Positions 42,539 to 56,555 of a stretch of 56,581 bases of DNA are shown in pieces. The DNA is from Thermogladius sp. (GTDB taxonomy: Archaea; Thermoproteota; Thermoprotei_A; Sulfolobales; Desulfurococcaceae): contig JAEMPJ010000026.1 in NCBI GenBank assembly GCA_022759365.1, forward strand, positions 17,401-73,981, written 5' to 3'. Made by a program: the position numbers and the translations under genes. The number at the start of each line of letters is the position of its first letter. The stretch's first letter is position 1. The notes beneath the pieces were generated by a model. The model saw nothing but the letters and a program-made list of their open reading frames with translations, was not told the origin of the DNA and searched no databases.

Positions 42539-44179
42539 CTATGCCACCTGCACGTACTGGTAGAATATCACATACATGTACAACGGGTTCACAGCAGAGC
42601 TCGGTAGCGTTACTCTCGGATTGTAGACGAAGACCTTCACCTCATCCCATAGATTCACTGCCACGGCATTATTAAACAACGTCTCCTGAGCTTCCCTATA
42701 CAACTCCATTGCTTTACCGTAATCAGACCCCTCTAAGGCGAAGGCCTCATCTATCAATTGGTTGAAAGTCTGGTTATCGTATCCACTCCAGTTCCACTCC
42801 TTGCTCTCGCCGTGGAATAAGTTGTAGAGGTAGTCATATGGCGATATTATTGTTGGCCACCAGTCGTTTATGAGCAGGTGAGGAGTGTTGTCTGGATTAT
42901 CCCAGACACTCTTCCCGGCTTCTTTAATGGACTCCCATGTAGAAGGTATGATCTTGACGTTCACACCGATCTCAGCCAGAGAAGTCTTGAGTATGCTGGC
43001 GAAATCCTCCTCCTCTGGATAGTCGGATTGATACATGAACTCGATCGTGACACCAGGCTTGACACCGCTCTTCTCCAGGTAGATTCTAGCAAGAGTCAGG
43101 TTCTGCTTGAATGAGAGGCCTTCCACGAAGCCGGGGAAACCGTGGGGGACATAGCCGCTACCTAACAAAGCGTACCCCTTCATAGCTTGATCCACTATCC
43201 TATCCCATGGTATAGAGTATAATACTGCGAGTCTGAACTCCGTGATGTTAGTTGGGTATCTCCTCGTATTGAAGACCAGGAAGTAACTGTGGAACGTGTT
43301 TATTCTTAACTCTTTGAAGCCCTTGTTAACCAGATCCTGGATGCTTACTCTTGGAACGCTTGTAACTATATCCAGCTCTCCGCTTATTAGTCCATTGTAC
43401 TGGTCCTGCGGATCAGTCTTAATTTTGATCACAACTTTGTCCGGGGCTTTATCATTCCTCACCATGCTCCACCCCCACCATTTATCAAACTTGACTAAGA
43501 CGACCTGGTTATAGGGGTCGTATGATTCGATCATGTAGGGGCCGGTGCCCTCGTCGGCACCCTTATTAAACCAATCCCTCAGCTTTAGATCCGTGTAATC
43601 CGATACACCGGCTTTCGCGAGAGCATTTGGGTTAAATATGTAAGCAGCGTAGCTTGAGGCTGCTATCAAATCCAGTCTTTGGGGATACTTCAACTTGAAT
43701 TCAACGGTGTAATCATCCAGCGCTTTAACATCCTCAACACTATCCCAAATATAGCCTAAGCCCACACCGTATTTTTCGTAGACTTCTTTAGCTCTCAGAA
43801 CACTTATTACAACCGCGGTGGAGTTGAAAGGCGAGTTGTCGTGGAACACGACTCCTTTCCTCAAGTGGAAGATCCAGACCGTGTTGTTCTCCTTCGACTC
43901 CCAGCTTTCAGCTAGAGCAGGTATTGTTTGATTCCTCAGGGGATCATAGTAGAGGAGCGGCTCGTAGACGCTCCCTAGCACGACCAGCCCTGTGTCATCC
44001 TCTAGACTAGGGTCTATTCCAGTAATCTTATCGTTGTAAGCGTAAACTAATACTCTCGGCTGAATCGAAGCCTGCCTAGTGGAGAGGTAGTAGGCTGCCC
44101 CGCCGGCAACAACTATCATAACTATTAGGGATACTAGGAGAAGCCTCCTCATGAATCTCACTAGGAAATCCTTAACCAC
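42539..44179 (-). CDS. Oligopeptide ABC transporter substrate-binding protein (SBP family 5)
   Basis: Extracellular peptide- or sugar-binding protein tethered by an N-terminal hydrophobic anchor. 546 residues, in the usual order: the opening segment VLGSVYEPLLYYDP, the domain motif LRKGVVFHDNSPFNS, then GTGPYMIESYDPYNQVVLVK, the SGELDIV segment, and the C-terminal FRLAVLYSIPWDRIVDQAMKGY. The likely start may be the ATG at 44152, given a TATA element at about 44192-44202; the GTG at 44179 gives a longer N-terminus. First gene of the complete dpp-like operon (A-B-C-D-F), divergent from the second YgeW-like gene. Confidence 0.92.
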   Translation of the reverse strand: MVKDFLVRFMRRLLLVSLIVMIVVAGGAAYYLSTRQASIQPRVLVYAYNDKITGIDPSLEDDTGLVVLGSVYEPLLYYDPLRNQTIPALAESWESKENNTVWIFHLRKGVVFHDNSPFNSTAVVISVLRAKEVYEKYGVGLGYIWDSVEDVKALDDYTVEFKLKYPQRLDLIAASSYAAYIFNPNALAKAGVSDYTDLKLRDWFNKGADEGTGPYMIESYDPYNQVVLVKFDKWWGWSMVRNDKAPDKVVIKIKTDPQDQYNGLISGELDIVTSVPRVSIQDLVNKGFKELRINTFHSYFLVFNTRRYPTNITEFRLAVLYSIPWDRIVDQAMKGYALLGSGYVPHGFPGFVEGLSFKQNLTLARIYLEKSGVKPGVTIEFMYQSDYPEEEDFASILKTSLAEIGVNVKIIPSTWESIKEAGKSVWDNPDNTPHLLINDWWPTIISPYDYLYNLFHGESKEWNWSGYDNQTFNQLIDEAFALEGSDYGKAMELYREAQETLFNNAVAVNLWDEVKVFVYNPRVTLPSSAVNPLYMYVIFYQYVQVA

Positions 44180-50376: not shown

Positions 50377-52290
50377 CTAGAGGGTTCTCAGCCTGGGTTC
50401 AACCATCTTCTCAATAGCTAGCCCCACTAGGACGAAAGCAAGGCTTGTAATCGATATTAGGAGTCCCGGCGGTACAATCCACCACCAGACATCATATCTA
50501 TTGGAGTCTCTCGCCCTACTCAACACTGCACCCCAGGTCGGGTAACCCGACCTGATCCCTAAGACGCTTAAGCCTGCCTCAGTGAGGATGGCAGATGGGA
50601 CTGAGAACACCATTGAGGCTACGCCGTAGGCAGCTACCTGGGGTAGTATGTGCTTCATTATCACCCTGTTGTTGCTTGCGCCTAGTGCAAGGGCCGCCTC
50701 AATGTACGGCTCCTCCTTTATGCTCAGCGTCATCGTCCTAACCGTTATGGCGAGACCGCCCCAGCCGAAGACTATCAGGACGACGATTATTGTCATGAGG
50801 ATCATGAACGGGTTGTTAACGAACACTAGCTCCGCTATCTGGCCCAGCAGTATCAGGATTGGAAGCAAGGGTATGTTCCCGATGACGTCTACAGTCCTCT
50901 GTATGGCCTCGTCAACGTACCCGCCGTAGTAGCCGCTTATAACCCCGAGCACCAGGCCTATGAGCGTTGTAGCGATAGCCGCTGTCAAGCCGATCGCCAT
51001 CGCGACCGGGAAACCATAGTATAGTATGACAGCTAAGTCCCTACCGATATCGTCTGTCCCCAACAAACCGTAGGCGGACCCCTTGAAAATTATCCTCACG
51101 GAACTTACTGGTAGCCCGGGTAGCCGTGTTAGAGGTGCTTCCGTAGAATACGACACTATCACCTGGGCTACGTAGCTACCCGTCAGTGGCTGAGTCTGGA
51201 TGTCGATGTTGTAGTATTTTGTCGTCGTCTCGAGATCGCTTATGATTTTCGAGAGCGAGCTCATAGATGAAGATAGAGTGGTGGACTGGTTTGCTGAAAA
51301 CGTGTTGTAGGCAATAGACATAGCGTAGGCCTGGGTGAGGTTCCCTAGAGCGGAGTAGAGGTAGGGTATCATACCTGAGGGTGTCCTAGCGTTTAAGGCT
51401 GCCTGGAGACTGCTTAGAGCGTTGCTTAAACCCGGTTTAACCGCGTTTGCGCCCGGCGCGGTCTCGGGGAGGCTCTTCAGCACTGAGTCGACCTGCTGGT
51501 AGATAGGGGTTATATCCGAGGATATGTTTCCTAGGGAGACTTTTATCACTAGTTTTCCGAATATGTAATATTGTGGGAAGCTCCTCATCAATGTAACAAT
51601 TTCATTCATGATGCCAAGCCTAACCACGGAGAGGAGGGTAGTATTACTGCCCACCACCTCAGCTAGCTGGGTTTCATTGATGTACCTGGCTCCTAAGGCC
51701 TGACCAACCCCGCCATAGTTCGTTAAACTGAGCTTTACATCCATCCTAGTATACCAGCCCGATACGTTTGATATAGTCGGCGACGTGGTTGCCAGGGTTA
51801 GGGTTAGGTTGTCTGGCCTAATGAGTATAAATGTTATAGTCGGGGAGATCACCTTCACAGTGTTATTTGCCTGGATGCTGAAGATTGCCGCACCCAGGAC
51901 TTTAGCAGTGACGTCCTGGGGGTACTGGGGCTGGGTGAGCTCGTATTTCGCTGTGTAGTTGTAGTACATGAACCCAGCCTGCTCACCCGACGATACAGGC
52001 TTCGTTAAAGCGCTCACGCTCTGAGGTGCCACAGGCTGGCCGAGGTAGCTCACCCACTCCGGGGGAACCAGCATCGGGTTTTCATCCCAGTAGGCGGGGC
52101 TCTCCCACATTGCCAGCAGGTTAGACGGCATTGTGACGGTCGCCGCAACCGATACGCCTACCAGGAGGATGAGCAGGATGAGGCCTACCTTGCCTGTACC
52201 GTAGCTCCAGATCTCCTTGAGGCCATCCCAAAGGGGTCTGATATATCTCTGCGAGATAGTTTTTGACATTGAGACCTGCCTGGAGGCCAT
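50377..52290 (-). CDS. Peptide ABC transporter permease (DppC type) with a large extracytoplasmic insert
   Basis: About 637 residues against about 300 for DppC. Helix 1 (about residues 36-56) is followed by some 350 residues of extracytoplasmic sequence, then the normal GTDDIGRDLAVILYYG and five more helices (EAA loop with EEPYIEAALALGASNNRVI, and TEAGLSVLGIRSGYPTWG). The insert has many NxS/T sequons (for example NYT, NNT, NLT, NVS, NET, NTT, NIS) and a helical, Ser/Thr-rich region. ATG at 52290 has GAGGTGG 5 nt upstream; a GTG at 52299 is possible. Stop-to-start with the DppB-type gene, so co-transcribed. ATPases are missing from this unit. Confidence 0.88.
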   Translation of the reverse strand: MASRQVSMSKTISQRYIRPLWDGLKEIWSYGTGKVGLILLILLVGVSVAATVTMPSNLLAMWESPAYWDENPMLVPPEWVSYLGQPVAPQSVSALTKPVSSGEQAGFMYYNYTAKYELTQPQYPQDVTAKVLGAAIFSIQANNTVKVISPTITFILIRPDNLTLTLATTSPTISNVSGWYTRMDVKLSLTNYGGVGQALGARYINETQLAEVVGSNTTLLSVVRLGIMNEIVTLMRSFPQYYIFGKLVIKVSLGNISSDITPIYQQVDSVLKSLPETAPGANAVKPGLSNALSSLQAALNARTPSGMIPYLYSALGNLTQAYAMSIAYNTFSANQSTTLSSSMSSLSKIISDLETTTKYYNIDIQTQPLTGSYVAQVIVSYSTEAPLTRLPGLPVSSVRIIFKGSAYGLLGTDDIGRDLAVILYYGFPVAMAIGLTAAIATTLIGLVLGVISGYYGGYVDEAIQRTVDVIGNIPLLPILILLGQIAELVFVNNPFMILMTIIVVLIVFGWGGLAITVRTMTLSIKEEPYIEAALALGASNNRVIMKHILPQVAAYGVASMVFSVPSAILTEAGLSVLGIRSGYPTWGAVLSRARDSNRYDVWWWIVPPGLLISITSLAFVLVGLAIEKMVEPRLRTL

Positions 52291-52301
52291 CCACACCACC
52301 T

Positions 52302-53405
52302 CTACCTGTACCTAACTCTTGGGTCAAGGTAGATGTATAGGATCTCCAGGATCAACCTCGCCAGGATATATACTAGAACCAGGATGAAGAACACGCCCAT
52401 GACGGTATTAACATCGCCGGTTGTAATAGCCGCGTATGTTAGAGTACCCATCCCGGGCCAGTCGAAGATAGACTCGGTGATTATTAGGCCGCCTAGGGAT
52501 CCTGCTAGGGCTAGTATAACGTATGTTACTATAGGCGGCGCCATCACTCTCACAATGTACTTCCTCGCTATATCTTTCTCCGGCAACCCCTTGGCTTTGG
52601 CGACCACCACGTAGTCCTCTCTAACAATCCTCAGCACCATGGCTCTAATAGAGTACAGCCAGGTGCTTAGAAAGGCTATGACAAGCGTTATCACTGGGAG
52701 AGTAGCATACCAGGCTATGTACGCCGTGTTAACCAATGGGTTGTCCCAGTAGCTGTTTATATAGGTCATTAGAGCCCTGTAGTTCGTTGGGAAAATCCTC
52801 ATCGTGTACCCGAAAACCGAGAGAAATATCATGGCAAGCCACCAAACTGGTACAGCGTTGAATAAAGCCGCGTAGCTCACGATCACCTTATCCCAGACCG
52901 AGCCATGCTTATATGCTATACGGGGTGCTAGAGGCAGGGCGATGACGGCGCAGATTGCCTCGGCGAGCGTCGCCATTAGTATTGTCCTGGGTAGAACCCC
53001 TGCTATAACTGTGATAACGGGCTGGGGCGGGAGTTTACCCACTAAAGCCGTTATACCCTCCTGGTTAGTGTACCCGAAGTCGAATTTGAGGCTGTTGAAC
53101 ACGAGCTTCCACATCCTAATGTAAGGCGGGACAGGGTTGCCGTTCGCGTCTATTAAACCATAATACTCCTCCCAGTAAAAGGTCATCTGGTTCTTGTAGT
53201 TCTGGATATCTGCTGGTGTTGCCCCGGGGTGTGTTCTGATAAATGCCTGTATATCCGCCTGGACATTTTGTATAACAAGAGCCTGGTATATCTTCTGCGC
53301 GAAGCCTGTTCCCTCCAGTATTACTGCTGTCAGTATCACTATGAGGATGAACGCTATAGTCAGCAATATAGCCCTCCTCACTATAACTCTTCCAGCACCC
53401 GGCAT
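52302..53405 (-). CDS. Peptide ABC transporter permease (DppB type)
   Basis: 367 residues. N-terminal helix, a ~100-residue external segment (ALVIQNVQADIQAFIRTHPG, then FYWEEYYGLIDANGNPVPP), then helices with the EAA-type loop VLRIVREDYVVVAKAKGLPEKDIARKY and a terminal FDWPGMGTLTYAAITTGD. The region before helix 2 is longer than in ordinary DppB, matching the trend in its partner. Own TATA box and GAGGT ribosome binding site. Function as the second half of the translocation pore. Confidence 0.9.
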   Translation of the reverse strand: MPGAGRVIVRRAILLTIAFILIVILTAVILEGTGFAQKIYQALVIQNVQADIQAFIRTHPGATPADIQNYKNQMTFYWEEYYGLIDANGNPVPPYIRMWKLVFNSLKFDFGYTNQEGITALVGKLPPQPVITVIAGVLPRTILMATLAEAICAVIALPLAPRIAYKHGSVWDKVIVSYAALFNAVPVWWLAMIFLSVFGYTMRIFPTNYRALMTYINSYWDNPLVNTAYIAWYATLPVITLVIAFLSTWLYSIRAMVLRIVREDYVVVAKAKGLPEKDIARKYIVRVMAPPIVTYVILALAGSLGGLIITESIFDWPGMGTLTYAAITTGDVNTVMGVFFILVLVYILARLILEILYIYLDPRVRYR

Positions 53406-53530: not shown

Positions 53531-56524
53531 CTACTTCTTTCTAACTAGTGCGATTCCTCCCAATATTAGGGTTATTACTACGAGGCCTAGTGTAGCGTAC
53601 ACCAGGTTTTGCAACGTTGACACCTGGCTCTTCAAAGCCTCCACGTCGCTGGATGTTGCGACACCCTGCAACGTGGTCTGGACGCTCGCCAGCGTGCTCT
53701 TAATTGACGATACGTCGCTTGACAGCGAGGATAGTTGGTTGCTAGTCGAGCTCTGGAAGTTCGCTAGCGAGCTTTGAGTCGCATTAGCAATATCGGCTAG
53801 GCCTTCTAGAATAGATGCCACACTCTGGATCTGCTCTTTGATAAAGCTTGTCAAGGATGTGTTCAACGTGGACATCTGTTGGTTTAGATTGCTTATTTTC
53901 GTGTAGATGTCGTTAATACTCTGGTTGAGTGCGTTTGACAACCTGCTGATAGCCTCCTGGTTCAATGAGTTCATGTATTGTAGTGCCTCAGCTGTTGAAG
54001 CAGTGGCCAGCTCAACCCTCCTCATATCAGGTACAGCAATTACATCAGAGTAGGCTAGCAGTATCAAGTAGTATGTTGACTTGTAGTCGAGGTTGGTGGT
54101 GAAGTTCTCTGGGAGGGTTATCTGGAATGCCGTGTCGTTGATCTGCTGGGCGTAGTCTGCCACCAGGATATTGCCGGCTGCATCCTTAATTATGTACTCG
54201 AGGTGTAGTGGCGGAACACCGTTGACGGTTACAGTTATGTTGGCTGGGCTACCGGGGAGTATCTTGTCTGGGATAACCGATGAGAGAGTGTACCCTCCGA
54301 TGAGGGTTGTAATCGGCTTCCCGAAGTACCAGTCTCCCTTCTTGAACGGGTATGTTGGATCCCTGAAAGCCTGGTACACTGCCTGCTGGGCGTCCTTATC
54401 GAACTTGACCAACATGAATGGGCCTTGGCTTATCCACGCGTTGCCGTAAGTGTTGATCCAGTTCAGGTCTGCCTGTATCCTCGCGTTCCACTCATCCATT
54501 GTCAGGAAGCCGTCCGCGTAGGCGTTGGCCTTCTGGAACACTGTCTGGTTGTTCAAGTATGTCTGCAAGGTATCTTTAACTAGCGCCACGTGGTCTGGGT
54601 ATACTAGGCTGAACCACTGGTATCCCTTCCTCTGGTATAAGACGAGGTTTGTCTGGTTCCTCTGGTCTAAGGCCAGCTGCCAGGTCACAGTGTGTATTTC
54701 AAGCGGGTTAGCTACACCTGCCGCAGCAGCCATTGATGCGATGTAGTTGGTGTCGAAGAACCAGTAGTCTATGTAGACTATCAACCTCTTGTTCTGCGCG
54801 TCGAATACGAGGCCTTTTATCAAGCTTAGAGTGGGTTGCAGGTTGCTCGCTATCCTCGGCTCCAAACTGCTGTACACGGGGTCGAATGCTATGTCGAACG
54901 AGTAGGCCCACACCGCTGCTACATCAGCCATTGTGATCGTCATACCGTTGTGCCATTTAGTCCCAATCAGCTTGCTGAGGTCGAATATCACCATGCTCGT
55001 AGCCTTCGTCCCATTGGGTACTGGCACCCACTGCTTTGAGTTAACATCCCACATCACAGCGTTGGATGGGACATCCAGTTTACCTGTGGGCCCAGCCGTG
55101 TTAACGATATAGCTGGTTCTGAAGGGTATGGGCTCGCCGTTGAACGGGTGGTTCCATACCATGGGGTCGTATGTGGCGTATAGCTGGTCGAAGTAGTAGA
55201 CGCTCTGGAAGCCACCCCAGTAGTTCCACGCGTCACCAGCTGTGTACACCCATAGGTGGCCTATAGTGAGAGACGACTTGCCAGGAATGAAGGCTTCTCT
55301 AACGTTCCATATGCCTCTCAGCCCAGCACCTAGATCCAGTGTTATACCCTGAACCTGGCTTGTTGTAACCCACGTGTCTAGCCTTGTGGCTATCCATATT
55401 CTAACCGACTCCTGGATTATCATCTCGGTTGCCTGTCTATATAATTGTGTAAACTCGGCTTGGCTTGTGAAGTTACCCATGTATATTCTCGTAGTCAGGT
55501 CATCTATCGTGGAGTTCTGGTAGTTCCAGAAGCTCGGCTCCTGCCAGCCAGGCATGTAGCCGAACCATGGTGCGCCGTACTGCGCTATACTACTAGTATC
55601 CCACTTTGTTACACCTCCCTTACCCCAGCCCTCTGTGTAGATGTGCCACTGGAACTCCATTGGATCTGTACCATAGACGGTGTTGATAGCGTCTGTGAAC
55701 CTCATGGGTAAGATGTTCACGTTGAAGCCGAGGAGCTTCAGGTCTGTGGCGATCATGTTGCCTATATCATACCTTTCATCCTCGATTCTAATAATGAAGT
55801 TTATCGTTATCGGTTTACCGCCGTAGTACCATGTTCCTCCAACTTTTTGTGCACCCACGGCTGTCAGCGCGTTTGTTATAATACTGTCAGCGTAGGAGGG
55901 GTCGTACCTGAACTCATATTTAGCTACTATGTCAGCGATGATAGTGTACGTCGGGTCGTACTGGCTTAGGAAAGTGTACATTGGTACACCGAAGCCCTTG
56001 AGAATCTGGGATACAACGGTATCCCTGTCCACGAGGTAGTTCATAGCCCACCTAACAGCCTTAAACGCAAACGGGTTTATGCTACTCGTGTTGGGGTTGG
56101 CGCCCAACTCGACTATGGTCTGGTTGCCTTGTACACTGAACCCGACTATAGCCGCCAGAGGGACGCCCAGGGCTGCTGCAGCCTGCTTAATATTGAGTGT
56201 ACCATTCAGCGTCACAACCGAGACAGGCGCTGGATTGAGAATCAAGTCCATTAAACCAGCAGGGGCCTGCCATAAAGTCGCGTTGGGGACGCTCTGCTGT
56301 ATCTGCTGCGCCTGTAGAGGCCTCAGAGCATAGTAGTACATGTCTATCTGCCCGCTCCCAATAGCGTCTGGAACCTGCGATAAGTCCACTCTTGTGAATG
56401 TGATCTGGTCGGATGCTGGACCAGGCTGGGTTGCCTGGGCGCTCCCGATATTAGATACTACTGGGATTACAGCTGTTAGAACTACAACTAGTAGGACGAG
56501 AGAGAGTTTTCCAAGCAACTTCAT
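53531..56524 (-). CDS. Peptide-binding protein (SBP family 5) with circularly permuted domain and C-terminal anchored stalk
   Basis: About 997 residues. Signal peptide (MKLLGKLSLVLLVVVLTAVIP...), then SBP family 5 pieces in swapped order: SGQIDMYYY near 57, KAVRWAMNYLVDRDTV near 160, IATDLKLLGFNVNILP near 265 (normally the second half), followed by YDPMVWNHPF near 460, WHNGMTITMADVAAVW near 530, and SQGPFMLVKFD near 705 (normally the first half). Then an Ig-like domain (745-845), a long heptad coiled coil (850-970) and a terminal helix with RKK. Sequons are abundant. ATG at 56524 has AGGTG 6 nt upstream. Forms an importer with the two permeases downstream. Confidence 0.88.
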   Translation of the reverse strand: MKLLGKLSLVLLVVVLTAVIPVVSNIGSAQATQPGPASDQITFTRVDLSQVPDAIGSGQIDMYYYALRPLQAQQIQQSVPNATLWQAPAGLMDLILNPAPVSVVTLNGTLNIKQAAAALGVPLAAIVGFSVQGNQTIVELGANPNTSSINPFAFKAVRWAMNYLVDRDTVVSQILKGFGVPMYTFLSQYDPTYTIIADIVAKYEFRYDPSYADSIITNALTAVGAQKVGGTWYYGGKPITINFIIRIEDERYDIGNMIATDLKLLGFNVNILPMRFTDAINTVYGTDPMEFQWHIYTEGWGKGGVTKWDTSSIAQYGAPWFGYMPGWQEPSFWNYQNSTIDDLTTRIYMGNFTSQAEFTQLYRQATEMIIQESVRIWIATRLDTWVTTSQVQGITLDLGAGLRGIWNVREAFIPGKSSLTIGHLWVYTAGDAWNYWGGFQSVYYFDQLYATYDPMVWNHPFNGEPIPFRTSYIVNTAGPTGKLDVPSNAVMWDVNSKQWVPVPNGTKATSMVIFDLSKLIGTKWHNGMTITMADVAAVWAYSFDIAFDPVYSSLEPRIASNLQPTLSLIKGLVFDAQNKRLIVYIDYWFFDTNYIASMAAAAGVANPLEIHTVTWQLALDQRNQTNLVLYQRKGYQWFSLVYPDHVALVKDTLQTYLNNQTVFQKANAYADGFLTMDEWNARIQADLNWINTYGNAWISQGPFMLVKFDKDAQQAVYQAFRDPTYPFKKGDWYFGKPITTLIGGYTLSSVIPDKILPGSPANITVTVNGVPPLHLEYIIKDAAGNILVADYAQQINDTAFQITLPENFTTNLDYKSTYYLILLAYSDVIAVPDMRRVELATASTAEALQYMNSLNQEAISRLSNALNQSINDIYTKISNLNQQMSTLNTSLTSFIKEQIQSVASILEGLADIANATQSSLANFQSSTSNQLSSLSSDVSSIKSTLASVQTTLQGVATSSDVEALKSQVSTLQNLVYATLGLVVITLILGGIALVRKK

Positions 56525-56555
56525 GTACTGCACCTAGGTTATTGAAGTATGCCTT

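Follow-up and report, generated by a model that had tools for sequence, protein, structure and literature searches.

The question raised by this locus is whether a binding protein of SBP family 5 (SBP5) can be encoded with the two halves of its domain in exchanged order and, if so, how widely such proteins occur. The gene concerned lies near one end of the window (by which we mean the whole stretch of 56,581 nucleotides analysed here) and on the reverse strand (-), as do all the window features described below. It occupies positions 53531..56533 and specifies a protein of 1000 aa, referred to here as the window protein. The start codon is either a GTG at 56533 or an ATG at 56524 (residue 4 of the longer form), the latter being the coordinate given in an earlier note on this DNA.

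Order of the two half-domains

The protein begins with a putative signal peptide (56432..56533; residues 1-34, approximate, with a hydrophobic segment at 4-32 and an inferred cleavage site). This is followed by the canonical second half of the SBP5 domain, here called half B (55280..56422; residues 38-418, about 145-349 of the Pfam profile PF00496), by a junction that connects the C-terminus of the canonical domain to its N-terminus (55259..55279; residues 419-425, defined as the gap between the two half-domain models) and by the canonical first half, half A (54320..55258; residues 426-738, PF00496 about 26-140). The junction, of about 7 residues, is kept in orthologues. The swapped motif order proposed in the earlier note is indeed present: GQIDM (residues 61-65), VRWAMNYLVDRD (residues 160-171) and LKLLGFNV (residues 265-272) come first, and YDPMVW (at about residues 455-460), WHNG (about 527-530) and GPF (704-706) come after these second-half motifs. 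The cut coincides with the canonical A/B boundary. It falls after ...RDPTYPFKKGDW, which ends half A, and before GPxxDxITF...GxIDM, which starts half B; in canonical terms this is between the ...NPxYW segment and the GxPxxDxI..GEID segment.

The window protein matches PF00496 above the curated cut-off (75.5 bits versus 32.4) in two stretches. When taken separately, residues 1-425 match only positions 160-349 of the profile (E 2.5e-17) and residues 426-744 match only positions 26-140, the latter weakly (E 0.0016). Since the pieces of the profile do not overlap, these are not two complete domains, and neither half alone holds a complete PF00496 domain; the earlier impression that there are no two complete tandem domains was therefore correct. 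Nor do residues 40-430 align over a full SBP domain, an outcome that had been named in advance as one that would refute the swap. A collinear match in canonical order is absent from the native chain, where the two pieces are reversed, and is obtained only after swapping: with the halves reordered in silico, the profile matches in a single stretch (26-349, 85.6 bits, E 4.7e-24), whereas the best native stretch scores 62.9 bits.

The closest PDB sequence is that of 7fi3, an archaeal dipeptide/oligopeptide-binding protein of 732 aa, which we take to be the OppA of Thermococcus. Unlike the window protein, it has the canonical A-B order. Both halves align with it: using a profile of seven orthologues, window residues 116-298 match 399-593 of the 7fi3 chain (E 6e-29) and residues 402-700 match 22-313 (E 8e-16). 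The swap is already visible with single-sequence phmmer. Circular permutation implies that segments are cyclically reordered without duplication, and this is satisfied in the comparison with PF00496, in that with 7fi3 and in the in silico swap. Three canonical SBP5 proteins from the same genome served as controls and all match normally; one, of 546 aa, is encoded within the window in a separate opp operon (42539..44179; PF00496 3-365 in one piece) and the two others are on contigs C27 and C21.

The exchange of halves was also applied to other proteins, using a profile derived from canonical proteins only. All eight permuted proteins from outside the clade of the window protein rose in score (from 84-155 to 158-254 bits), while each of the ten canonical proteins fell. 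The score of the window protein itself was unchanged and its half A was not matched by this canonical-only profile, because half A is too distant from the canonical seeds. Only the family profile and 7fi3 make the assignment of half A secure.

Half A has diverged from canonical profiles much further than half B has, and one might see here a chance fusion of two half-domains with separate origins, no single gene ever having been permuted. This is very unlikely: the nearest neighbours of the canonical-order L065 and L066 (described below) agree for both halves, 7fi3 pairs with both, and the swapped chain fits a single profile with neither overlap nor any large gap. Sequence comparison thus confirms, as far as it can, that the window protein contains one circularly permuted SBP5 domain whose two halves have changed places.

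Structure prediction adds little. AlphaFold2, supplied with 7 sequences only, gave a mean pLDDT of 52 with the window protein placed first and 48 with a relative (L034) first. In a Foldseek search with the first of these models, SBP5 structures are on top (NikA, AppA and TM1223; E about 1e-5) with TM-scores of about 0.13, a ranking that is no more than suggestive. An OppA-like fold is therefore inferred from homology; the native fold has not been shown.

Conservation and operon context

Only 48 bases separate the start of the gene from the upstream end of its contig (C3), and an artefact of assembly or gene calling had to be considered. We regard this as refuted to the point of being negligible. 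The gene contains no internal frameshift or stop, a full-length orthologue (80% identical) exists in a genome assembled as a single contig (G001), and about 90 further genomes carry the same arrangement. Full-length homologues numbering in the dozens align collinearly with the window protein. An alignment of 11 sequences (A3) finds matches in 99 of 151 genomes of the phylum and, counting from the matches listed, in 91 of the 151 a collinear match spans the new junction, many of these being closed genomes. Canonical order occurs in two of the 99 (G044 and G054), the rest of the listed matches being partial or fragmented. The full-length members that were retrieved, down to about 25% identity, all have the order B-A except for L065 and L066. 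A scan of IMG/VR found no relatives, and a search of plasmids found only weak matches to one or other half.

The permuted SBP adjoins two permease genes of the BPD_transp_1 type in the same operon, permB (52302..53405) and permC (50377..52299), as expected for the receptor of an importer of the Opp/Dpp type. PermC carries a large insert, with about 400 residues preceding a permease domain that begins at residue 448; its homologues are of 479-667 aa. The SBP-permB-permC operon is conserved in relatives, where two genes for ATPases of the OppD/F type usually adjoin it. In the genome under study no ATPase gene adjoins the permuted operon. OppD/F-like pairs are found in the canonical opp operon and on contig C40 (G000 C40:3209-5172), the latter with no neighbouring permease match on that contig. 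The pair on C40 may work with the permuted SBP and its permeases, which have no ATPase genes in their operon.

By its profile, key motifs and adjoining Opp/Dpp-type permeases, the window protein thus belongs with the OppA, DppA, NikA and AppA proteins of SBP5. It differs from these in its swapped halves and in having a C-terminal Ig-like module, stalk and transmembrane segment instead of an N-terminal lipid anchor. Its operon makes a role as receptor of an Opp/Dpp-type importer most likely, with ligand binding, transport, folding and the orientation on the permease all inferred. We consider it very probable overall that this is a circularly permuted SBP5 acting as the external receptor of the ABC importer encoded in the same operon, although fold, ligand and transport are inferences. 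In the window protein the old C- and N-termini are joined by a few residues; by inference, the permuted chain would fold into the normal two-lobed trap, which would bind peptides or oligosaccharides and hand them over to PermB and PermC.

Ig-like module, stalk and anchor

The SBP5 halves are followed by an Ig-like module (53999..54292; residues 748-845), recognised from sequence conservation and Foldseek. Foldseek matched an MG4 domain as well as GH2 Ig-like domains, and weak Pfam matches to MG2/Big_13 in relatives support the module, as the earlier note had supposed. Next comes a helical stalk (53624..53995; residues 847-970), which is a probable, though not proven, coiled coil judging from its hydrophobic periodicity. 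No shuffled sequence out of 2000 matched its helical/heptad periodicity; however, the best period is 3.6 and the coiled-coil register is therefore unproven. The type of stalk also varies. It is helical in the window protein and in L034-L036, whereas L031-L033 have a Pro/Thr-rich linker and, as these are close orthologues, proteins of the permuted type can do without a coiled coil. Of the coiled-coil stalk initially described, a helical stalk with strong periodicity remains, the coiled coil itself being optional.

A helical stalk of this kind, together with swapped halves and a short junction, would also suit an arrangement in which chains oligomerise through the stalk and each half B combines with the half A of a neighbouring chain, so that the binding sites form a domain-swapped cluster. 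We consider this improbable. The close orthologues with a Pro/Thr-rich linker have no helix and yet are permuted. Moreover, the N- and C-termini of canonical SBP5 proteins both lie in lobe I, so that closure within one chain should be easy.

The chain ends with a transmembrane segment and a basic tail (53540..53608; about residues 976-998). The C-terminal membrane anchor that had been noted is thus present, but it is not unusual in itself, since the canonical-order L065 and L066 likewise have a TTTP linker and a transmembrane segment at their C-termini. Work by Elferink from 2001 is reported to describe the Opp-class SBPs of Sulfolobales as C-terminally anchored; these sugar- and peptide-binding proteins likewise have a signal peptide, a linker and a C-terminal transmembrane anchor. 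To our knowledge none of them has been described as permuted. If the intrachain permutation is correct, the stalk would hold the binding domain above the membrane through a central point of the old sequence and not through an old terminus, and this new anchor point would change the seat of the SBP on the permease.

Other permuted lineages and changes of order

The order B-A is not limited to close relatives of the window protein but recurs in other SBP5 lineages of Thermoproteota. It is found with strong family matches in L102, L104 and L115-L119 (675-777 aa); in L102, for example, profile positions 145-361 come first and are followed by 4-154 at E 8e-28. L155 and L156 also have the order B-A, with an N-terminal transmembrane segment and a TTTP linker. 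In their relatives L160 (1-785 aa) and L142 the last part of B is followed by A and then by the rest of B (b2-A-b1). An N-terminal transmembrane segment with a Pro/Thr linker is common to both types. L156 and L160 share 56-61% identity once aligned in swapped order, and it follows that the cut site itself has moved and that permutation happens in conserved genes. Distant permuted members also occur in family f11 (L095, L096 and L157, presumably from Sulfolobaceae). L145 and L146 (804 aa) seem to have the C-terminal part of half B ahead of half A; the matches are weak (E 1e-4 to 3e-5) and this is possibly a further cut site.

A tree of both halves places the group of L155, L156, L160 and L142 inside the canonical SBP5 proteins and apart from the clade of the window protein. 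A single clade containing all permuted proteins was rejected by the AU test (p 0.004; p 0.017 when L065 is admitted to it). For both halves, the nearest relatives of the canonical L065 (4173-6863) and L066 (3964-6657) are permuted proteins, and the two nest within the permuted clade of the window protein. They come from two genomes of the same taxonomic order, belong to the subfamily of the window protein, have the same operon layout and carry a C-terminal transmembrane segment with a TTTP linker, but differ from the window protein in their canonical order. With 7fi3 as the only outgroup, one versus several changes of order could not be decided (AU p 0.27). When seven outgroups were used, the grouping of permuted proteins into one clade was rejected (p 3e-5), but this set includes the permuted L102, L104 and L115, and 7fi3 also fell inside the clade of the window protein. 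These trees involve large distances and quick searches, and the groups were named after the trees had been seen.

Several changes of half order among the SBP5 proteins of Thermoproteota are likely from these phylogenies. A true return from permuted to canonical order in L065 and L066 is possible but has not been shown. A broader proposal is that half order in this phylum is fluid, with A-B, B-A and b2-A-b1 interconverting repeatedly, returns to canonical order included, perhaps because a shift of the anchor re-orients the receptor on the permease; we find the case for and against this evenly balanced.

Circular permutation in nature is as a rule infrequent and ancient, but within this one large family of transporter receptors it appears common and repeated, with permuted pairs at the level of identity given above. 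No previous description of a naturally permuted SBP5 was found in the literature, where only open-access papers were searched. Circularly permuted periplasmic binding proteins have been engineered as biosensors by the same topological operation, but those are laboratory-made while the window protein is natural and conserved. Permuted SBP5 proteins offer a natural experiment on how the topology of the chain, the position of the anchor and the delivery of ligand are linked. They are probably misread, as fragments or as multi-domain SBPs, by automated annotation and by pipelines for domain architecture.

If repeated permutation is real, the origin of the permuted genes and the reversibility of the change become testable. 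They are inferred to have arisen, more than once, by duplication and fusion of an SBP gene followed by loss of the outer halves. An A-B-A-B intermediate was looked for in two long ORFs, L038 and L042, and was not found, both being simple B-A. These two are very long permuted SBPs (L038, 1078-5814, 1579 aa; L042, 1168-4902, 1245 aa) and, in L038, Ig domains of the Big_13/Big_7 type follow.
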